A DNA stretch of 63,414 nt. Origin: Pirellulales bacterium (GTDB lineage: Bacteria; Planctomycetota; Planctomycetia; Pirellulales; Thermoguttaceae). The stretch is from the NCBI GenBank assembly GCA_016931995.1, contig JAFGDS010000100.1, positions 1-63,414 on the forward strand. The letters run 5' to 3'. The notes under the pieces are model-generated. The model made no database searches. It saw nothing but the letters and a program-made list of their open reading frames with translations, and had not been told where the DNA came from. Position numbers and translations under genes: made by a program. Shown here in pieces: positions 11,993 to 36,688 of this stretch; the stretch's first letter is position 1, and every line of letters begins with the position of its first letter.

Positions 11993-12059
11993 GTGCCACT
12001 GGCTTTGCCAGTGCCTGCAACAATGTGGTCGAAATCGGCATTGGCGGAGCCAGTGGCAT
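11993..12059. repeat. REP-like palindrome pair, copy 3
   Basis: GTGCCACTGGCTTTGCCAGT is followed about 30 bp later by a mirrored imperfect unit (GGCATTGGCGGAGCCAGTGG). It lies just after the BBP7 stop, between convergent genes, and could act as a transcription-ending or mRNA-stabilising structure. Confidence 0.75.
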
Positions 12060-19773: not shown

Positions 19774-20733
19774 TCACCGATTCTCCTCGCGAGGCCCGCG
19801 ACGCCGGGTTCGCCGGTGGACGTAATACGTGACCGCCACGGCCACAAGCAACGCGACGGCGGCGGCCCAGAGGAAGTCGGTTCCGCGGGGAGGCGCCGCG
19901 GGAACCCCCGGCGGCCGCGGCCGCCAGTCCACGCCGCGGGCGAGCAAAAGCGGGGCCACCTCCATGCCGCGCTTCGATCGGTAAAGCCACCGCTTGAAGA
20001 CGAAACCCGTCACCGCGACCGGCTCCGCCAGGCCGTCGCCGGTCGGGAAGCCCTCGGGCAGTTCCAGGCAATAGACGACCACCGGCCAGCCGGGGCTATC
20101 CTCCGGCTCGATCCAGAGCTGATCGTAGCGGGCGATGCCCGCCGCGTTGGACGGCGGCTCCTTGCGCAGCGCCCCGCGAACCGTGCCGCGGACCGTGACC
20201 AACTCGCCGCGATACGCCGGCAACTGCTCGAACAGCTCGATCCGTGTCACGCGGCCAATCGACGCCTTGGCTAGAGCCGCCGGCTCGGTCCGGGCAAGAA
20301 TCTTCAAGAGGCCGAACCAAGCCGCGTCTTCGGCGGGCCGCAACACGGTGTTGTCCTTGATCGCCGCTAGCCACTCGGCCGGAACGTCCGGGCGGCGCCG
20401 GTCTTTGGGTTCGCCTGGCGGTTTCACCGGTGGTTCGGTCGCCACCGGCTCGGCCGCCGTTGCGTCGTCGTCGGGTCCGGCCAAGCGGATCGTGCCAGGT
20501 TCGTCCTCGGGAACTGGGTCCGCATGGCGCGGCGGCGCGAGCGGTGGCTCTTGCGACGCAGCCGACTCGTCCAATCGCGCGAACCACGTCCAATTGGCCG
20601 GCTTTCGGGCCTCGACGGCCAGGATCACCACCAATCCCAGCGCCCCGACCAACAGAAGCAGGCGTCCCTGCTCGCGTCGCGAGAAGTAGTCGCGCGGCCT
20701 GGGCTTGTCGGGAATGCGAGCCAATCGAACCAT
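19774..20733 (-). CDS. Membrane protein, paralogue of the lipoprotein-like protein at 3492-4451
   Basis: The protein has 319 residues. The N-terminus has a helix at LLLLVGALGLVVILAVEA after a basic segment (RDYFSRREQGR). A Pro-rich linker and a central domain with YRGELVTVRGTVRGALRKEP and VVYCLELPEGFPTGDG follow. A second helix, FLWAAAVALLVAVAVTYYV, lies near the end with a basic tail. The central domain and C-terminal helix match the protein encoded at 3492-4451. The beta-rich VTVRGTVRG segment resembles an OB-like fold, which is inference. The function is unknown. The gene starts beside a REP-type cluster. Confidence 0.68.
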   Translation of the reverse strand: MVRLARIPDKPRPRDYFSRREQGRLLLLVGALGLVVILAVEARKPANWTWFARLDESAASQEPPLAPPRHADPVPEDEPGTIRLAGPDDDATAAEPVATEPPVKPPGEPKDRRRPDVPAEWLAAIKDNTVLRPAEDAAWFGLLKILARTEPAALAKASIGRVTRIELFEQLPAYRGELVTVRGTVRGALRKEPPSNAAGIARYDQLWIEPEDSPGWPVVVYCLELPEGFPTGDGLAEPVAVTGFVFKRWLYRSKRGMEVAPLLLARGVDWRPRPPGVPAAPPRGTDFLWAAAVALLVAVAVTYYVHRRTRRRGPREENR

Positions 20734-20912: not shown

Positions 20913-21091
20913 AGACCCCCGAATAGGTTGTTACTTCCGACGCGACAGGGCTGCGGGGGTGGTTATAATGAACCGGTACGGGAGCCCTCGATTCGTCCCG
21001 GGGTTACCCTCTGATCTGGGGGTGTGGAATAAGTCTCCACGTGACAGGCGAACGGGTAGGGAGAGCGGCCTGTCACCTCGACGGCCCGCGG

Positions 21092-21631
21092 ATGGCCTCC
21101 GCGGCCAGTGAGGAGCGACCGGCCTTGGCGTTATCCGGGTCCGAATTTGACCGTTTGGTGGACGCCCACGCGGCGACGTTGTACCGCATGGCGTACCGGA
21201 TGGTGGGCGATCGCCACGAGGCCGAGGATCTCGTCCAGGATACGTTCCGATCGGCGTGGACCAGCCGGGCGTCGTTCGAGCCGGGCCGGAGCGATCGGGC
21301 GTGGCTCGTGTCGATCCTGCGGCGGCGCTCCGCCGACCATTGGCGGCGCCGGCGCCTGCCGATGATTGTCGGAGGTGGGTTGCCCCCGGAGGTCCGCGTC
21401 GAAGGAGACGATCCCTTGCACGACCGCTTCACCGACGCCGTGCAGCACGCGCTGGATGCCCTGCCGGGCGAGTTGCGCGAGTCGCTGCTTTTGGTCGTGG
21501 TGGGCGAATTGACGCACCGCGAGGCGGCCCGCGAGCTGGGCGTGCCCCTGGGCACCGTCCTGTCGCGCGTCAGCCGCGCCCGGGCGCGATTGCGTAAACT
21601 GCTGTTGGAGGTGGACCGTCGGACGGGATAG
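21092..21631 (+). CDS. ECF-type RNA polymerase sigma factor
   Basis: From the ATG at 21092 the product is 179 residues; a GTG at 21041 would add 17, and neither has a good ribosome-binding site. Region 2 is clear: FDRLVDAHAATLYRMAYRMV, GDRHEAEDLVQDTFRSAW. Region 4 is HALDALPGELRESLLLVVVG followed by the helix-turn-helix ELTHREAARELGVPLGTVLS. It lies 168 bp upstream of a membrane protein with an anti-sigma-like layout, which is its likely regulatory partner. Confidence 0.88.
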   Translation: MASAASEERPALALSGSEFDRLVDAHAATLYRMAYRMVGDRHEAEDLVQDTFRSAWTSRASFEPGRSDRAWLVSILRRRSADHWRRRRLPMIVGGGLPPEVRVEGDDPLHDRFTDAVQHALDALPGELRESLLLVVVGELTHREAARELGVPLGTVLSRVSRARARLRKLLLEVDRRTG

Positions 21632-21652
21632 TTGGGCGCCAAGCCCATCCGA

Positions 21653-21716
21653 GTGCCACTGGCCCCGCCAGTGCCTTGGAACACCGGGAAGTTGACACTG
21701 GCAGAGCCAGTGGCAC
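21653..21716. repeat. REP-like palindrome pair, copy 5
   Basis: GTGCCACTGGCCCCGCCAGT is followed by GACACTGGCAGAGCCAGTGG. It lies between the sigma factor stop and the next gene on the same strand, so it would be transcribed with them. Confidence 0.72.
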
Positions 21717-21799
21717 TCGCGGTCAGGAGGCCGCTTGCGGCTTCGCAATGGTGAAAAACGCACGGGTCTTCTGGAAGACGTACCAGTCAAGATGTTGAA

Positions 21800-23332
21800 A
21801 TGGGGACGCGGGTGAGTCCGTTGGATCCTAATGTCGAAGCGTGGCTCGACGACCGGCTGCGGGACGTTCCGGTTCCGCCCGGGCTCGCGTCGCGGCTGCG
21901 CGCCATTCCTCTGGAGCAAGACGGCGACCTCGACGCGGCCGTGCGCGACGTGGCGGTTCCGCTGGATCTCCGCGCGCGGCTGAGCCGGATCGCCCGGCGA
22001 CCGCGGCGCGGGCGACGGCTCGTCTCGTCGATCGTGGCCGCGTCGCTGGTGGTGGGTGTCGCCTTGGGATATCTGGGCGCCGTGGCGGGCCTCATGCGGA
22101 GCAGCTACGCGCGTCGCGACGATCGGCCGGCGGCCCGGGTCGAGCCACCCCGGCGGGTTCGGCCGGCCTTGGTAACCAGCAAGGACATGATCTCCGCCCC
22201 GCTGGCCGAAGAGACAGCCCCGCCCGACGTATTCCGCGACGTGCTCGCCCCGCGGGAAGGCCTTTGGGTGGATGATCCCTCGCCGAGCGACCTGGGCGTT
22301 TTTCCGCTGGACCAGGACCACGCGGAGGTCGATCCGCTCCTGGACCTGAGTCTGTATCGCGGCGGCGTGCTGGGTTCGCCGGCCAAGGTGGAACAGCTTC
22401 CGGAGTTGAAGGAGGCGCCGGCCTTGGCGCGACGGGGCGTGGAGTTTCCGCTCGTGCCGGGATTTGACGTGGCCTGGCTGGAGATAACGGGCGTCCACCC
22501 GTTCGTCTCGCCCGCCGCCCATCCCGCGCTTCGCGCCAGCGTGGTGCCGTTGAGCGTGGGCACGACGAGCTACGAGCGGGCGTGGCGGCTCGTGGAGGCC
22601 AACAAACCGCTCCCGCCGGCGGAGATCCGCACGGAGGAATTCCTCGCGGCGATCGACTACGCCTTCGCGCGGCCGGAGCACGAAGCGATGGAGCTTCATC
22701 TCCTGGCGGGCCCGTCGCTGACCGATCCGCGATTGCGGCTGCTTCAGGTGGGCGTGCAGGCCCGCGACGCCGCCTCCGGCGGCGAGGTCTCGACGAATTC
22801 GTCGCAACCGGTCGCCCGCAACGTCCGGCTGGAGGTGTCCTTCGAGCCGAAGGTGGTGGGGCTCTATCGCCTGCTGGGGCACGAGGGCACGTCGATGGCC
22901 GGTCTTCGCGCGGCCAAGCTCGATACGGATTTTGCCGCGGGACAGTCGGCCACGGCCGTTTTCGAGATCGCGACCATTCCCGAGGCGCAGGGCGAGGCGG
23001 CGCTGGTCCGGTTGAGCTGGATCGACGCGGCCACCGGCGAAGCCCGCGAGCTGGTCCGGACGATCCAATCCGGCGACCTGCACGCGGCCAAGACACTCCC
23101 CGAGGCGCCGGCGTCGGTGCAGGCGGCGGCCGTGGCGGCGCTCGGCGCGGAGGTGTTGCGGGGTAGCCCGTTCGTGCGGATTCGCCCCGTGCCCATCACG
23201 CTGGCCCACGTGCTGCAAGTGACGCGATTTCTCGATCCCGCGTTGGTCCAGAACCCATCCTTCGTGAGATACGTCTCCCTTCTGGAGAAGGCCCAGCGAG
23301 CCAACCCCGCGCGGCGGAGCCGGCAACGGTAG
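21800..23332 (+). CDS. YfbK-like membrane protein lacking the VWA domain; candidate anti-sigma factor
   Basis: The protein has 510 residues. The N-terminal soluble part (residues 1-70) contains a repeated motif, RDVPVPPGLASRLRAI and RDVAVPLDLRARLSRI. A helix follows at 74-98. Residues 250-324 (VPLSVGTTSYERAWRLVEAN, LPPAEIRTEEFLAAIDYAF, LLQVGVQARDA) match the segment before the VWA domain in E. coli YfbK-type proteins. Residues 341-460 (VRLEVSFEPKVVGLYRLLGH, FAAGQSATAVFEI) match the segment after it (DUF3520-like). The VWA domain itself is absent: the two flanks are joined by about 16 residues. Its place after an ECF sigma gene and the cytosol-helix-exterior layout suggest an anti-sigma role, which is inference. 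Confidence 0.72.
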   Translation: MGTRVSPLDPNVEAWLDDRLRDVPVPPGLASRLRAIPLEQDGDLDAAVRDVAVPLDLRARLSRIARRPRRGRRLVSSIVAASLVVGVALGYLGAVAGLMRSSYARRDDRPAARVEPPRRVRPALVTSKDMISAPLAEETAPPDVFRDVLAPREGLWVDDPSPSDLGVFPLDQDHAEVDPLLDLSLYRGGVLGSPAKVEQLPELKEAPALARRGVEFPLVPGFDVAWLEITGVHPFVSPAAHPALRASVVPLSVGTTSYERAWRLVEANKPLPPAEIRTEEFLAAIDYAFARPEHEAMELHLLAGPSLTDPRLRLLQVGVQARDAASGGEVSTNSSQPVARNVRLEVSFEPKVVGLYRLLGHEGTSMAGLRAAKLDTDFAAGQSATAVFEIATIPEAQGEAALVRLSWIDAATGEARELVRTIQSGDLHAAKTLPEAPASVQAAAVAALGAEVLRGSPFVRIRPVPITLAHVLQVTRFLDPALVQNPSFVRYVSLLEKAQRANPARRSRQR

Positions 23333-23568: not shown

Positions 23569-26500
23569 ATGACGCACCCCATGCGACGACTGGTTTTCTT
23601 GTTCGCCTGCGGGATCCCGTGGCTATTGGCCGCGGGGCCGGCGGGGGCGGTCGAGCCGTGGCAGCCGTTTCTGGACCGGCTGCGCCAAGCCCAGATGTTC
23701 GACATGGCCTTGGCCTATCTCGACCAGATGGCCACGAGTCCCTTGTGTCCATCCGAATTGAAGGACGTGCTCGACTACGAAGCGGGCGTGACGCTCATGG
23801 CGCAATCGCGGACGCTTCGCGCGCCATCGGAGCGGGCACAGGCGCTCGACGCGGCGCAGCAGCGCCTCGGGGCGTTCCTCTCCGCCCACCGCGACCACCC
23901 CATGGCCGCCAGCGCGACGATCCAGTTGGCCAACGTCCTGGTCGAGCGGGGACGGATGAAGGCGGAGGACGCCCAGCGACCCGTCCGCCTGCCCGACGAG
24001 AAGAAACAACTCCTGGAGGAAGCGCGAGCCCTTTACGACGAGGCGAAGAAGGAGTTCACCCGAACCGAAGAGCATTTCGTCGAGGCGCTCAAGGGACTGC
24101 CCACCGGGTTGATCGACCCGAAGGACGTCAAGCTGATCGACCGGCGGGCCCAGGCGCGACGCGACCTGGTCCAGGCGCGGATCGTGTTGGCCACCGTGGT
24201 CCACGAGCAGGCAATGACGTATCCGGAGGAAAGCAAGCGGCGCAAGGAGCTTCTGAAGGACGCGGCCGCGCGGTTCCACGACGTCTTCGACAAATTCAAC
24301 GAGAGAAACGTTTACGCCGCCCCCTTTGCCCGAATGAACGAAGGGCGATGCCACAAGGAACTGGGCGATTTCAAGCGGGCGGGGGAGATCTTCGACGAGC
24401 TGCTCCTGGGCAAGGGCGACCAAGGGCCCATGCGCGATCTGAAGATCAAGACCCTTGTCCTGGCTCTGCAGGTGGCGCTCGATCCGAAGGTGAACAAACC
24501 CGCCGAGGCCATCGAGAAATACGAGGCGTGGCTGGCGGCCGCGCCAGGCGTCGAATCGAATCCCGACGCGATGGCCGCGCGGATTCTCGGCGGCCGGGCC
24601 TACCTCGAGGCGGCCCGGGCGCTGGGGGCGAGCGATCCGAAGCGGACGAAGCTCGTCGCCAGCGCCTACCAGACGCTGGAGTTCGTCACGCGGTTTCCCG
24701 GCGAGCAACAGCGCGAGGCCCGCGTGCTGCTGCTCGATCCGCTCTTCGGCAAACGCGACGCGCCCGAGACGACCCCCACGACCTTCGCCGAGGCCCGCGA
24801 CCGCGGCCGCGCGGCGTTCGAGCGGGCGCAAGTGGCCGACGCGCAGGACCGCATCGACCTGCAACGGGGCGTCACCGAGAACCACGAACGCTACGTGAAG
24901 GAGATCGCCGAGGGCCGCGCGGACGCGAAAAGATGCTACCAGATGGCCCTGGGCATGATCGCGCCGGAGACGCCCGTGGAGGACGTCAACGTCATCCGCT
25001 ACCACCTGGCTCACCTGTGCCTGAGCGAAGAGGACTATTACGACGCGGCGGTGCTGGGCGAGTTCCTGGCGGATCGCTATCCCGAAAGCGCGGCGGCCCG
25101 TCCGGCGGCCCTGGTGGCCCTGGGCGCCTTTGCGCGGCTTTTCAACGCGGCCGCGCCGGGTCCGACGAAGGACTTCGCCCATGCCCGCATGATCGCCGTG
25201 GCCAACGCCATCACCGAGCGCTGGCCCGCCAGCACGGAAGCCGCCGACGCCTGGGCGAGCCTGGCGCAAATGGCGATCCTCGGCGGTGATCTCGCCCGGG
25301 CGCGAGAGTATTTCGAGAAGCTGCCTGCCGACGCGCCCGGCCGGGCAACGGCCGCGCTGCGGCTGGGCCGCGCGCTGTGGGAGGCCTACCTCGACGCCAA
25401 CCGGGCGGACGCCCCCGGCGCGGCCCCGCCGCCCGAGCGCGAGGCGACGCTCGCCCAGGCCAGGACGTTTCTCGCCGATGGGCTGGCCCGGCTGCCGGAC
25501 GAAGAAGAAGTGGATCTGGCCGTCCTGGCGGCCGCACTGTCGCTGGCTCAAATCGACCTTCGCGACGGCAAACCGGCCGACGCGGCGGCCGTGCTGGAGA
25601 ATCCGAAGTTTGGGCCGCTGGCCCTGGTGAGGGCGAAGCGTCCGGCGGCGTCGGGACAGCAGACGATTCAAGAGACGTACAAGGCGGCGCTTCGGGCGTA
25701 CGTCGCCACGCGGCAGCTCGAAAAGGCCGAAAAGGCCATGGACGCGCTGGAGAAGGCCATCCAGGTCGGCGGCGACGCCGAAGCCGCCGCCACCCTGACC
25801 CGCATCTACGTCGCCCTGGGCCGCGAACTGCAAGACCTGCTCGAATCGCTTCGCAAGGAGGGCAAATCCCAGGAAATGGCCCAAGTGGCCGAAGGGTTTG
25901 AACTCTTCCTCGATCGCATTGCCCAGCGCGACGAAGGCAATACGTTCAACTCGCTCTATTGGGTCGCGCGGACGCTTTCGGGCATGGCGGCCGGGTTCGA
26001 CGCGCCCGGCGGACCGCCGTCGGCCGAAGCCGAGAAGTACTACAAGAAAGCGGCCGCGGCCCACCAGAAGATCCTCGACCTGGCCAAAAAGGACAACGCG
26101 TTCGCTCCCGCCGGCGCGACTTGGGGCGTCGAGGTGGGCCTGGCCACGTGCCTGCGGCGGCTGGGCCAGTATGACAAGGCCATGAACGGTCTGGTCGACG
26201 TGCTCCGCCAACGCAACACCATGGTCGACGCCCAGGTCGAGGCCGCGCGCACGTATCAAGAGTGGGCCGCCACGCCGGGCAATGCGAAGTACTACCTCTT
26301 CGCCATCTCCGGCGGACGCGCCTGGCAGAAGGACGGCCGGCGGGTGAACATCGTCTGGGGATGGGGCAAGATCGCCAAGATGGTCAGCCGGTCGGCCAAG
26401 CATATGGACGTCTTCCACGAAGCCCGGCTCAACCTCGCCCGATGCCGGCTCGAATACGCCCTGACCCTCTCCGGCGCGGAGAGGAAATCCACGCTCCAGC

Positions 26501-26640
26501 AAGCCGAACGCGACGTCACGGTCACCGCGCTGCTTTACCCCGAGCTGGGCGGGCCGAAATGGCGCGGCCAGTACGACTCCTTGCTCAAAAAGATCCAAGA
26601 ACTGCTCGGCAAAAAGCCGGTCGGGCTCGAAAAACCATGA
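23569..26640 (+). CDS. Large secreted tetratricopeptide-repeat protein
   Basis: The product has 1023 residues. I use the ATG at 23569 (or 23581) because a signal peptide follows, LVFLFACGIPWLLAAGPAGA; the longer frame from 23485 lacks one in the right place. The rest is almost all helical with TPR-type spacing, for example ELGDFKRAGEIFDELLLGKG, LSEEDYYDAAVLGEFLADRY and LRRLGQYDKAMNGLVDVLRQ. It is the first gene of an apparent operon with a second TPR protein, TolQ and two TolR proteins. In such clusters a large periplasmic TPR protein may work as a scaffold for the proton-driven complex (inference). Confidence 0.78.
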   Translation: MTHPMRRLVFLFACGIPWLLAAGPAGAVEPWQPFLDRLRQAQMFDMALAYLDQMATSPLCPSELKDVLDYEAGVTLMAQSRTLRAPSERAQALDAAQQRLGAFLSAHRDHPMAASATIQLANVLVERGRMKAEDAQRPVRLPDEKKQLLEEARALYDEAKKEFTRTEEHFVEALKGLPTGLIDPKDVKLIDRRAQARRDLVQARIVLATVVHEQAMTYPEESKRRKELLKDAAARFHDVFDKFNERNVYAAPFARMNEGRCHKELGDFKRAGEIFDELLLGKGDQGPMRDLKIKTLVLALQVALDPKVNKPAEAIEKYEAWLAAAPGVESNPDAMAARILGGRAYLEAARALGASDPKRTKLVASAYQTLEFVTRFPGEQQREARVLLLDPLFGKRDAPETTPTTFAEARDRGRAAFERAQVADAQDRIDLQRGVTENHERYVKEIAEGRADAKRCYQMALGMIAPETPVEDVNVIRYHLAHLCLSEEDYYDAAVLGEFLADRYPESAAARPAALVALGAFARLFNAAAPGPTKDFAHARMIAVANAITERWPASTEAADAWASLAQMAILGGDLARAREYFEKLPADAPGRATAALRLGRALWEAYLDANRADAPGAAPPPEREATLAQARTFLADGLARLPDEEEVDLAVLAAALSLAQIDLRDGKPADAAAVLENPKFGPLALVRAKRPAASGQQTIQETYKAALRAYVATRQLEKAEKAMDALEKAIQVGGDAEAAATLTRIYVALGRELQDLLESLRKEGKSQEMAQVAEGFELFLDRIAQRDEGNTFNSLYWVARTLSGMAAGFDAPGGPPSAEAEKYYKKAAAAHQKILDLAKKDNAFAPAGATWGVEVGLATCLRRLGQYDKAMNGLVDVLRQRNTMVDAQVEAARTYQEWAATPGNAKYYLFAISGGRAWQKDGRRVNIVWGWGKIAKMVSRSAKHMDVFHEARLNLARCRLEYALTLSGAERKSTLQQAERDVTVTALLYPELGGPKWRGQYDSLLKKIQELLGKKPVGLEKP

Positions 26641-26796: not shown

Positions 26797-27819
26797 ATGC
26801 GATTGGGCCAATTCGTGATGATTCTGGCCGTCGGGCTCGGGATGGCCGCGCCGGCCGGCGCGCTGGATACGGTGCGGCTGGGCAAGACCCCGCTGGCCGG
26901 GCAGATCACGGGCATGACGGCCCAGCAGGTCACGCTTGACCGGCAAACTGGCAGTGAAAACATCTCCGTCGATCGGATCACGGCGGTCTATTTCGAGGGC
27001 GAGCCGCCGGCGTTGAATCTCGCCCGCGTGGCCGTGGCCAACGGCCGATTCGAGGACGCCCAGGAGATCCTGTCGAAGATCGACGCGTCGGCGCTGCCCA
27101 ACCGGTACGTTGTCGAGGACGTCGAGTATTACAAAGCCCTGTGCGCGGCCCGCCTGGCCCTGGGCGGCAAGGGCACGATCCGCGAGGCCGGCGGCCAGAT
27201 GGCCCGATTCGTGGCCAACTACCGCGACAGCTACCACTGGTACGAGGCCAACGAACTCGTCGGTGACCTGCTGGTGGCCAACCGGCAATTCGCCGCCGCG
27301 GTGAAGTACTACGCCGTGGTCGGCAGTGCCCCGTGGCCGCGATACAAGATGCGTTCCGACGTGGCCGTGGGCCGGGCCCTGCTGGCCGAAGGCAAGACGG
27401 CCGACGCCCTGGCCGCCTTCGACAAAGTGCTCGCGGCCGCCGCCGATCCGCAATCCGAGGAGGTGAGGCAATTGGCCCAGTTGGGCAAGGCCCGCTGCCT
27501 GGCCGAACAAGGCCAAACCGACCAGGCCGTCCAGCTCGTTCAGGAGATCCTCGCCAAGTCAGACCCGGAAAACGCGGTCCTCAACGCCCAGGCGTACAAC
27601 GCCCTGGGGGCCGCCTTGCGCAAGGCCCAAAAAACCCAGGACGCCCTACTGGCGTTCCTGCACGTCCATCTGCTTTACTTCAGCAGCGGCGAGGACCACG
27701 CCGAGGCGCTGGCCAACCTGGCCGAGCTGTGGAACGACACCCGCCAGCCGCAACGCGCGGCCGAGGCGCGGGAACTGCTCAAGCAACGCTATCCAAACAG
27801 CCGTTGGGTTTCGCCCTGA
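26797..27819 (+). CDS. Secreted TPR protein
   Basis: From the ATG at 26797, preceded by GAGGAG, the product is 340 residues with a signal peptide (FVMILAVGLGMAAPAGA). The first 60 residues after it form a small beta domain (VRLGKTPLAGQITGMTAQQV). TPR-like helices follow (GRFEDAQEILSKIDASALPN, RQFAAAVKYYAVVG, QGQTDQAVQLVQEIL, FLHVHLLYFSSGEDHAEAL). It is the second gene of the TPR-TPR-TolQ-TolR-TolR cluster. Confidence 0.78.
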   Translation: MRLGQFVMILAVGLGMAAPAGALDTVRLGKTPLAGQITGMTAQQVTLDRQTGSENISVDRITAVYFEGEPPALNLARVAVANGRFEDAQEILSKIDASALPNRYVVEDVEYYKALCAARLALGGKGTIREAGGQMARFVANYRDSYHWYEANELVGDLLVANRQFAAAVKYYAVVGSAPWPRYKMRSDVAVGRALLAEGKTADALAAFDKVLAAAADPQSEEVRQLAQLGKARCLAEQGQTDQAVQLVQEILAKSDPENAVLNAQAYNALGAALRKAQKTQDALLAFLHVHLLYFSSGEDHAEALANLAELWNDTRQPQRAAEARELLKQRYPNSRWVSP

Positions 27820-27910: not shown

Positions 27911-28780
27911 ATGCGGAAACGAAGCAATCTGGCGGGGTGGCGCGCGGCCTGCTGCGGGCTGATGGCGATAATGGTGGGCATGGCGTGGCTGTCCGGCCCG
28001 GCCGGGCTGGGTCCGGCCGCGGCCACGGCGCAGGTCGACGAATCGGCCGACGACGAACCCGCCGCCGACGAGCCCGCCGACGACGAGCCCGCCGACGACG
28101 CCAAACCCGCCGCCAAAGCCGCGCGGGACGACGACGCTCCGGCCAAGCCGGAGAACCTGCTGGTGTGGATGGGCAAGTCGCTGGGCATCTCCTACAGCAT
28201 CGTGTTCTTCGGGTTGTCGTTCACGCTCGTGGCCTTGCTCGTGATGAACATCCTCACTGCCCGGCGCGAAAGCGTCGTGCCCGTCGCCCTGGTCGAAGCC
28301 TTCGAGGCCCATCTCAATGCCAAGGAATACCAGGCGGCCTACGACCTGGCGAAAAACGACGAGTCGTTTCTGGGCCAGGTCCTCTCGGCCGGCCTGGCCA
28401 AGCTCTCGCAAGGCTACAGCCAGGCCATCGAGGCCATGCAGGAAACCGGCGAGGAAGAAAACATGAAGATGGAGCACCGGTTGAGCTACGTCGCCCTGAT
28501 CGGCGTGATCAGCCCCATGGTCGGCCTCTTGGGCACCGTGCAAGGCATGATCGCCTCGTTCCAGGTGATCGCCACGAGCTCGACGGCGCCCAAGCCGTCG
28601 CAGTTGGCCGAGGGCATTTCGACGGCGCTGTTCACGACGTTGGTGGGCCTCATGATCGCGATTCCGGCCATCGCCGCGTACAACATCCTCCGCAACCGCG
28701 TGGCCCGGCTCGTCCTCGAGGTCGGCATCCTCAGCGAAGACCTGATGAGCCGGTTCTCGAACGTGGGCAAAAAGGAGTAA
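27911..28780 (+). CDS. MotA/TolQ/ExbB-family proton channel protein
   Basis: The protein has 289 residues. An N-terminal signal-like helix is followed by an acidic low-complexity stretch (DDEPAADEPADDEPADDAKP). The three TolQ/ExbB helices follow: IVFFGLSFTLVALLVMNIL; LSYVALIGVISPMVGLLGTV; and GISTALFTTLVGLMIAIPAI. The signature GLLGTVQGMI is present. Such proteins form the pentameric inner-membrane channel that, with ExbD/TolR, converts proton flow into work on the envelope. GGGAGG lies before the ATG. The extra N-terminal signal and acidic linker are a variant I recall from planctomycetes. Confidence 0.88.
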   Translation: MRKRSNLAGWRAACCGLMAIMVGMAWLSGPAGLGPAAATAQVDESADDEPAADEPADDEPADDAKPAAKAARDDDAPAKPENLLVWMGKSLGISYSIVFFGLSFTLVALLVMNILTARRESVVPVALVEAFEAHLNAKEYQAAYDLAKNDESFLGQVLSAGLAKLSQGYSQAIEAMQETGEEENMKMEHRLSYVALIGVISPMVGLLGTVQGMIASFQVIATSSTAPKPSQLAEGISTALFTTLVGLMIAIPAIAAYNILRNRVARLVLEVGILSEDLMSRFSNVGKKE

Positions 28781-28884: not shown

Positions 28885-29328
28885 ATGCGATTTCCCGTTC
28901 CGCGTCAGGCCCCGCCCGCCGAAGGCGACATGACGCCGATGATCGACATGACGTTCCAGTTGATCGCCTTCTTCATGGTGCTGATCAACTTCACGGAGGC
29001 CGATCAAAACGAGCGGATCCATCTGCCCGCCAGCGAGCTGGCCAAGCCGGCCGACGTCCCGTTCGAGTATCCCATCACGCTCCAGTTGACCAAGGGGGGC
29101 ACCGTGCTGTTTCGCGGGCAGGAGCAGCCCTTGCCGGGCCTCTTGCCGATGCTCCGCCAGGAGCGGGAGTACCTCAGGCTGCAAAAGGAGCAGCCCCGGC
29201 ACGCGACCGTCATCATCCGCGCCGACGCCGACGCCAAAACCGGCGTGGTCCAGGAGTTGATCCGGATGTGCCAGGACCTCGGGTTCGAGAAGTTCGCGCT
29301 GCGGGCCAAGCAGAAAGAGAGGATCTAG
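28885..29328 (+). CDS. ExbD/TolR-family protein (first)
   Basis: The product has 147 residues from the ATG preceded by GGAG. It starts with a short cytoplasmic segment. The single helix carries the conserved aspartate, DMTPMIDMTFQLIAFFMVLI. A periplasmic domain follows (ITLQLTKGGTVLFRGQEQ, ATVIIRADADAKTGVVQELI). ExbD/TolR partners the TolQ-like channel; the Asp in the helix is the expected proton carrier. The long frame starting at 27937 is an out-of-frame extension over tolQ and is not real. Confidence 0.87.
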   Translation: MRFPVPRQAPPAEGDMTPMIDMTFQLIAFFMVLINFTEADQNERIHLPASELAKPADVPFEYPITLQLTKGGTVLFRGQEQPLPGLLPMLRQEREYLRLQKEQPRHATVIIRADADAKTGVVQELIRMCQDLGFEKFALRAKQKERI

Positions 29329-29331
29329 CCG

Positions 29332-29820
29332 ATGAAGATCCGCAAAACGGGCCGGCAGGCCGAAAAAGTCGAGCTGATGATGACGCCGATGATCGACATC
29401 GTCTTCCAGTTGCTCATCTTCTTCATCATGACCTTCAAGATCGTCGCGCCCGAAGGCGACTTCAACGTGAAGATGCCCCTGGCCGCGCCCAGCGAGAGCG
29501 CCACCGACGTCTCGCAGCTTCCGCCGCTGAAGGTCCGCCTCACGGCCGCGGCCGGCGGCCGCATCGCCGGCGTGTACCTAGGCCAATCGAAGATGGCCAG
29601 CTTCGGCGAGCTGCGCGAAAGGATCCTCGAGGTGGTCGGCCGCGACACCGGCCCGGGCTCGGTCGCCGCGGAAACCGAGGTCGAGCTCGACTGCGACTAC
29701 AACCTCGACTTCCAATACGTCATCGACGCCGTCACGGCCGTCTCCGGCGAGGTGACGCCCGAGGGGCAGATCGTCAAGCTCGTCGAGAAGATCCGCTTCG
29801 CCCCGCCGCGCAAGCCGTAG
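29332..29820 (+). CDS. ExbD/TolR-family protein (second)
   Basis: The protein has 162 residues and its ATG lies 3 bases after the preceding stop. The helix ELMMTPMIDIVFQLLIFFIM carries the conserved Asp. The periplasmic part (PPLKVRLTAAAGGRIAGVYL, FQYVIDAVTAVSGE) fits the ExbD fold. Two different ExbD subunits beside one TolQ suggest a heteromeric stator-like complex. The operon ends here and is followed by a structured repeat. Confidence 0.87.
   Translation: MKIRKTGRQAEKVELMMTPMIDIVFQLLIFFIMTFKIVAPEGDFNVKMPLAAPSESATDVSQLPPLKVRLTAAAGGRIAGVYLGQSKMASFGELRERILEVVGRDTGPGSVAAETEVELDCDYNLDFQYVIDAVTAVSGEVTPEGQIVKLVEKIRFAPPRKP

Positions 29821-34804: not shown

Positions 34805-36688
<1,884 letters not shown>

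Follow-up and report, generated by a model that had tools for sequence, protein, structure and literature searches.

YfbK-type proteins, in which a VWA domain, of ligand-binding type, is placed between an N-terminal flank (PF12450) and a C-terminal one (YfbK_C, PF12034), are among the described systems closest to the protein considered here, a 510-residue product encoded beside a stress-type, extracytoplasmic function (ECF) sigma factor gene in a contig of a Pirellulales bacterium (GCA_016931995.1, JAFGDS010000100.1; the whole stretch of 63,414 nucleotides is referred to as the window). This protein has both VWA flanks in common with the YfbK type, but is devoid of the VWA, carries a tandem repeat at its N-terminus and is paired with one ECF sigma lineage; because the VWA was tested for and is absent, the protein is not filed as YfbK. 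Zinc-finger class I anti-sigma factors (zf-HC2 or DUF3379-like) likewise stand beside ECF sigma genes, and many of them bear the motif VPVPxGLxxRL behind the finger. The window protein differs from these by the lack of an HxxxCxxC zinc finger, by a motif arranged in tandem and by a periplasmic part of YfbK type, and it was not filed under the zinc anti-sigma domain because the finger is absent.

Three further systems deserve comparison. According to the accessible text of a 2025 report (PMC12204202), membrane-tethered vWA proteins of the PVC group are encoded near TPR, tolQ-like and paired tolR-like genes and are proposed to serve as force transducers; they share with our locus the YfbK-like periplasmic part together with the TPR, the tolQ-like and the two tolR-like genes, and the phrase "sigma factor" was not found in that text. 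As far as the same text allows the comparison, the window protein departs from them in having no histidine in or near its transmembrane helix, no SHLS motif or conserved His and no C-terminal VWA fold, with an ECF sigma gene in the cluster and its own gene upstream of the tolQ/tolR-like set. The ArnB and Sec23-Sec24 core (8s05 and 5a8j) presents a similar beta sandwich and helical part (Z 8.7 and 7.9), although at 10-12% identity and in proteins with a VWA of their own; similarity of fold says nothing about function. Lastly, a review (PMC8103513) states, in the part available, that soluble anti-sigma factors arose by truncation of membrane-anchored ones. Sixteen relatives of our locus have likewise kept only a small protein without a membrane helix, but the unit kept is a peptide of about 25 residues and not a full known anti-sigma domain. 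We consider it likely that the 510-residue protein is a membrane-anchored anti-sigma factor for the adjoining ECF sigma, in which the tandem peptide is the sigma-binding element and the VWA is dispensable.

The YfbK scaffold and the history of its VWA

The sigma gene encodes a 179-residue ECF protein with both sigma regions present (Pfam), and 168 bases separate it from the 510-residue open reading frame on the same strand (Table 1). In the latter, YfbK_C exceeds its Pfam cut-off of 25 bits at residues 337-394 (E 1.6e-6), PF12450 (the N-terminal flank, named vWF_A) reaches 18.1 bits at residues 246-295, under the cut-off of 25, and Pfam gives no match to a VWA domain. When the profile of four VWA-less members is compared with that of eight YfbK proteins that have a VWA, the alignment (probability 99.8, E 1.7e-30) extends over 257 columns and residues 230-503 of the window protein, the VWA being one gap in it. 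Between the flank matches 20 residues are left in the window, against 173-251 in 70 related loci. Close VWA-bearing orthologues align in two pieces with a break at window residues 323/329; the closest found (L033, 707 residues, the same protein as L053 from a Pirellulales metagenome-assembled genome) matches at 2-323 (45% identity) and 329-509 (53%), and its VWA is intact with DVSAS. Structure models of the window protein and of L053 agree strand by strand, with the VWA of L053 between strands 325-334 and 533-544. The ArnB/Sec23-24 core was matched by residues 295-507 of the VWA-less model (Z 8.7, 168 residues aligned, root mean square deviation 4.3), which is modest evidence for the fold, and by a VWA-bearing relative at E 1.9e-17. 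A preliminary description of this locus had recognised the two flanks of a YfbK-type VWA, had seen a short linker in place of the domain and had suggested comparing profiles with YfbK. The flanks are borne out by YfbK_C and by the similarity of the profiles, PF12450 alone remaining sub-threshold, and the linker corresponds to a loop of about 15 residues in the models, at which position the closest relative has its VWA.

The protein is predicted to have a cytosolic N-terminus and a single transmembrane helix. The net charge is +7 before and +2 after this helix, and the positive charge is greater before than after it in 54 of 62 family members. A long linker of low model confidence follows. The first 120 residues, helix included, contain neither Cys nor His, and no zf-HC2 match was obtained in the protein at E 1. 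Sequence searches of the PDB returned nothing useful for the window protein or for a zinc-finger protein, the matches of the family profile covering the VWA part. The genome contigs searched with the window protein alone yielded no confirmed relative, and a profile of the flanks recovered 47 loci. In the genome of origin there is no close copy of the excised VWA (the best match has 32% identity, in a 1421-residue frame) and no second YfbK_C match.

In order to follow the fate of the VWA, the census was anchored on the sigma factor. Among the 396 genomes sampled from the order, 100, including our own, each have one orthologue of it (E 1e-30 or better). The neighbourhoods of all 100 loci were read as far as the contig or stretch extends, and classes were set by the residue distance between the flank matches; the VWA model misses degenerate inserts. 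Both YfbK flanks are present in 75 loci, 70 of them with a VWA-sized insert of 173-251 residues (open frames of 663-921 residues among these orthologues) and five with 13-23 residues (the window, G000, together with G040, G099, G120 and G180). In 16 loci there is only a small frame without a membrane helix: 13 frames of 72-130 residues bear the repeat and no hydrophobic helix and lie between the sigma and TPR genes, one of 165 residues (G161) bears the repeat at a contig end, and two (G042 and G148, 97 and 112 residues) show a degenerate motif that was missed by the repeat model and read by eye. The TPR gene is seen to remain in 15 of these 16. Two divergent loci (G062 and G075) have frames of 656 and 791 residues in which a hydrophobic helix and a weak motif are seen and the flanks are not recognised. 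The remaining seven are cut by contig ends (G006, G016, G027, G093, G159, G177 and G273); in G027 a YfbK with its VWA lies on a different contig (L033), and in G006 the beginning of a VWA is present. An initial screen of 60 genomes (our own and 59 relatives; 36 matching at E 0.01 or better) had mixed orthologues with general YfbK proteins. The order sigma then YfbK is conserved across the family loci, in agreement with the pairing noted in the preliminary description, and the survey of the pair with and without VWA that had been proposed there gives 70 and five cases in a conserved neighbourhood.

A family tree of 62 of the 65 members (without three fragments; the rows were taken from the hits and are no random sample) calls for five changes of VWA state, of which four are forced by well supported branches, and the five VWA-less members formed one group in 0 of 200 bootstrap trees. 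On this phylogeny the VWA state changed at least four times, and we read the changes as losses because the VWA is present in most of the family and in YfbK proteins outside it. A quick sigma tree places 15 of the 16 small-protein cases in one clade (Shimodaira-Hasegawa-like approximate likelihood ratio test 99), with G226 elsewhere. The metal site of the VWA is lost in many lineages: among 57 full-length VWA-bearing members, scored at fixed columns, DxSxS (S or T) is kept in 28 and all five residues in 21. One of the five VWA-less genes (L055, G099) has a frame break at two N. Another VWA-less YfbK type was observed in the window's family (L049 6922-8505, minus strand, and L104 2028-3680, plus strand; 528 and 551 residues; G021 and G305). 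In this type the repeat is missing, zf-HC2 matches the N-terminus below threshold, and the ECF-type sigma encoded upstream is a different one (28-29% identity); it probably represents a further, separate loss.

The tandem repeat and the zinc-finger proteins

The duplicated RDVxVPxxLxxRL that had been reported before the single helix is indeed exact in both copies, RDVPVPPGLASRL and RDVAVPLDLRARL, each recovered by a hidden Markov model (HMM) of the repeat. The family motif can be written LDxxLRDVPVPxGLxxRLR. At 5 bits or more the repeat model finds 63 of the 65 family members (one to five copies), none of 19 other ECF-linked YfbK proteins and one of 65 shuffled sequences; the two members not found are a truncated gene and L055, in which two N break the frame and four copies lie in the other frame.

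A profile of the two repeats, run on 397 genomes of the class, matched 39 genomes at E 1e-5, of which 38 lie within the order. The match in the 39th is a zinc-finger protein adjoining an ECF-type sigma, with PF11859 at 24.7 bits, below the cut-off of 33.2. Searching for PF11859 in 248 genomes of the class gave 30 loci in 29 genomes; a HxxxCxxC-type finger is present in 23 of them, and all 23 adjoin an ECF-type frame (24-38% identity to the window sigma). Because one copy of the motif sits behind the finger in 15 of these 23 proteins, the repeat resembles the stretch that follows the finger in a zinc anti-sigma domain, which would have been retained and multiplied once the finger had gone. The position of this stretch suggests that it belongs to the domain. 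It is probably through the retained repeat that the protein holds the sigma factor.

Zinc fingers are also seen in YfbK proteins encoded next to other ECF-type sigma factors: zf-HC2 is over its cut-off in three of the ten scanned and weaker in three more, and two of the ten are VWA-less themselves. The YfbK-ECF link extends beyond planctomycetes, two Methylobacterium YfbK proteins (L087 and L091) being encoded directly behind an ECF-type sigma with 35% identity to that of the window. The preliminary description had envisaged a new kind of anti-sigma factor or envelope sensor built from the YfbK scaffold. The anti-sigma role stands as the best reading, but it was not created by the loss of the VWA, because an insert the size of a VWA is still present in 70 of the 75 sigma-linked loci that have both flanks, and some YfbK proteins linked to other ECF-type sigmas already carry zf-HC2.

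Predicted promoter and gene cluster

The sigma gene is preceded by the ECF-type promoter motif GGAATA-N17-CGAA (Table 1). The motif is found exact and with the same spacing upstream of 40 of 59 family sigma genes, against a mean of 0.02 after shuffling, and each other spacing from 12 to 22 gives at most one exact match in these 59 upstream regions. Furthermore, in two genomes (G110 and G123; L214 and L224) the same motif lies 47 nucleotides upstream of the first start codon in the cluster's ExbB-like gene, which is 64% and 63% identical to that of the window, directly 3' of two TPR genes and followed by an ExbD-like frame. The genome of origin has five exact matches, against one for a reversed control. 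Besides the sigma gene's own, one falls inside a same-strand frame, two fall inside long opposite-strand frames, and the last (G000:C134) is 161 nucleotides before a 350-residue frame (rough choice of reading frame); because three of these four are inside frames and the fourth is 161 nucleotides away from one, no regulon is claimed. Sixteen of the matches in nine further genomes were inspected. In the closest relative (L216, G027:C201) a similar promoter, GGAATAAGTCTC...CGAA, was observed just upstream of a 1056-residue frame with a signal-like stretch near its start, a possible further sigma target.

Table 1. Features of the sigma locus in the window
Feature	Position	Strand	Evidence
Divergent gene, frequent beside the sigma gene	19774..20733	-	no Pfam family over cut-off
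Predicted ECF-type promoter GGAATA-N17-CGAA upstream of the sigma gene	21026..21052	+	exact motif once in window, 0.05 expected
ECF sigma factor, 179 residues	21092..21631	+	Sigma70_r2 E 1.1e-18, Sigma70_r4_2 E 1e-13 (Pfam)
VWA-less YfbK-type membrane protein, proposed anti-sigma factor, 510 residues	21800..23332	+	
Repeat 1 (LRDVPVPPGLASRLR), helix-VPVP-helix, before the membrane helix	21842..21901	+	repeat HMM 33.3 bits; model helices 14-21, 29-35
Repeat 2 (VRDVAVPLDLRARLS)	21926..21988	+	repeat HMM 22.4 bits; model helices 41-49, 55-66
Single transmembrane helix, predicted N-in by charge	22031..22087	+	hydropathy 2.24; model helix 70-107
N-terminal flank of the lost VWA (PF12450-like), last element beta strand 312-321	22463..22762	+	
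Short loop at the VWA position of relatives	22763..22807	+	about 15 residues between strands 312-321 and 337-348 (model)
C-terminal flank (YfbK_C), remainder of beta sandwich and helices	22808..23314	+	PF12034 28.8 bits
Conserved next gene, large TPR-type protein with a signal-like start as judged by eye	23569..26640	+	Pfam TPR matches below cut-off
Second TPR protein (start codon inferred by eye)	26797..27819	+	TPR_19 E 4.6e-12, scanned from 26683
TolQ/ExbB-like motor protein	27911..28780	+	MotA_ExbB E 7.5e-30
First TolR/ExbD-like protein	28885..29328	+	ExbD E 1.4e-17
Second TolR/ExbD-like protein	29332..29820	+	ExbD E 3.3e-16

Downstream, 53 of the 61 family loci that extend far enough, the window among them, have a same-strand homologue of the first TPR gene, and the ExbB-like gene is present in nine of the 11 testable loci other than the window. 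Of the 47 family loci with sufficient sequence upstream, again counting the window, 23 have a homologue of the divergent gene. A paired inverted repeat resembling repetitive extragenic palindromic elements, GTGCCACTGGC...GCCAGTGGCAC, occurs at 11993/12049, 20798/20851, 21653/21706, 26685/26741, 36707/36802 and 40022/40075 (16 matches with at most one mismatch, 1.44 expected), one pair being located between the sigma and YfbK genes and one upstream of sigma. A serine/threonine protein kinase is encoded at 34805-36685 on the plus strand (Pkinase E 1.3e-56).

Proposed role and alternative explanations

We propose that the two cytosolic helix-VPVP-helix copies would keep the sigma factor inactive at the inner membrane, which one helix is predicted to span, and that outside a linker would bear the YfbK-type beta sandwich, reading the state of the envelope perhaps via the pair of TPR proteins and the TolQR-like motor whose genes follow. 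Upon a signal, the sigma factor would be released and transcribe its own cluster from GGAATA-N17-CGAA. The VWA, usually inserted in one loop of the sandwich, would be an accessory that can be dispensed with; it has been removed cleanly here and on at least three other occasions. The anti-sigma role is the best reading because of the zf-HC2 on ECF-linked YfbK proteins, the conserved pairing, the predicted N-in topology and the existence of small truncated forms, in which the motif outlives the rest of the protein (13 genomes and G161, with a degenerate motif in G042 and G148). We found no publication that treats YfbK or VWA proteins as anti-sigma factors, and an earlier description in ECF-classification or planctomycete papers is possible; the novelty lies in a repeat motif that persists where the VWA, the membrane helix and the entire periplasmic part have gone, together with the repeated loss of the VWA.

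Several points weigh against this proposal. The window protein has no zinc finger and no anti-sigma domain of Pfam or NCBIfam, eight of the 23 zinc-finger proteins are without the motif, and seven of the ten scanned YfbK proteins beside other ECF-type sigmas are without zf-HC2 over the cut-off. The repeat is modelled with middling confidence (pLDDT about 55-72), and in the larger set the exact promoter stands at 56 of 100 orthologues (4 of 5 VWA-less, just 6 of 16 small-protein and 46 of 79 other loci). The data show the loss of the domain, the conserved pairing and motif, a promoter-like sequence and the cluster, from which we infer binding and inhibition of the sigma factor, the topology, the signal and the release step; the conserved neighbourhood would also fit another kind of cytosolic partner. 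Alternatively, the cytosolic repeats might have a positive effect on the sigma factor, by co-activating it or tethering it to the membrane; the conserved pairing fits both actions and the present data do not separate binding from inhibition. We nevertheless regard a positive action as unlikely, since 15 of 23 zinc-finger proteins resembling anti-sigma factors contain the motif and since the review, in the part available, describes soluble forms produced by truncation for anti-sigmas (PMC8103513). In addition, the N-terminus alone gives a match to MshEN (PF05157, E 0.0083), which would point to the binding of a nucleotide such as cyclic di-GMP by the repeats; with 16.5 bits against a cut-off of 23.1, and a match in one of the seven N-terminal pieces scanned, this explanation is hardly credible.

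The cluster itself suggests another role, in which the protein is the force transducer of the TolQR-like motor and the sigma factor merely shares the cluster. The window has the same gene set as the vWA force transducers, and the ExbB-like gene recurs in most testable loci. However, the histidine expected of such a transducer is missing from the first 120 residues and is found within the most hydrophobic 19 residues in just three of 62 members, a loose SHLS-like pattern being present in six of 65 somewhere within the first 330 residues. Furthermore, the VWA is lost in five of 75 loci, and the transmembrane and periplasmic parts are lost in 16 while the TPR gene is seen to stay in 15, so that we hold a transducer role to be quite improbable. 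A decaying pseudogene or an assembly artefact, with the VWA either lost at random or omitted during assembly, would be in line with a draft genome in 153 contigs, with the absence of DxSxS from 29 of 57 VWA-bearing members and with the frame break at two N in L055. Both assembly error and decay are very unlikely: the loss is in-frame at the domain border, all five cases are at the same loop with 13-23 residues left, the tree forces at least four changes and no bootstrap replicate unites them in one. Nor is there any increase in rate (mean flank distance to 11 outgroup rows 0.568 in the window and 0.558 in its sister; to six outgroup rows, 0.614 in L102 and 0.633 in L103), and 14 of 14 conserved columns and the exact promoter are retained in the window.

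An extension of the anti-sigma reading, possible but doubtful at present, is that LDxxLRDVPVPxGLxxRLR may act on its own as an anti-sigma module, about 25 residues long, that became separated from the zinc-finger anti-sigma domain and is carried in one to five tandem copies either on a membrane sensor, with or without VWA, or as a free small protein. The copies might clamp or store several sigma factors and the TolQR-like motor might gate their release. If this were true, the state of a force-generating envelope machine would set the transcription of its own cluster. The natural deletion series beside one sigma factor (70 loci with a VWA-sized insert, five with none and 16 with only a small motif-bearing protein) points to the smallest unit able to serve as sigma partner and supplies ready constructs. 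An ECF sigma is also tied to a TolQR-like motor cluster, and the predicted promoter makes its regulon searchable.

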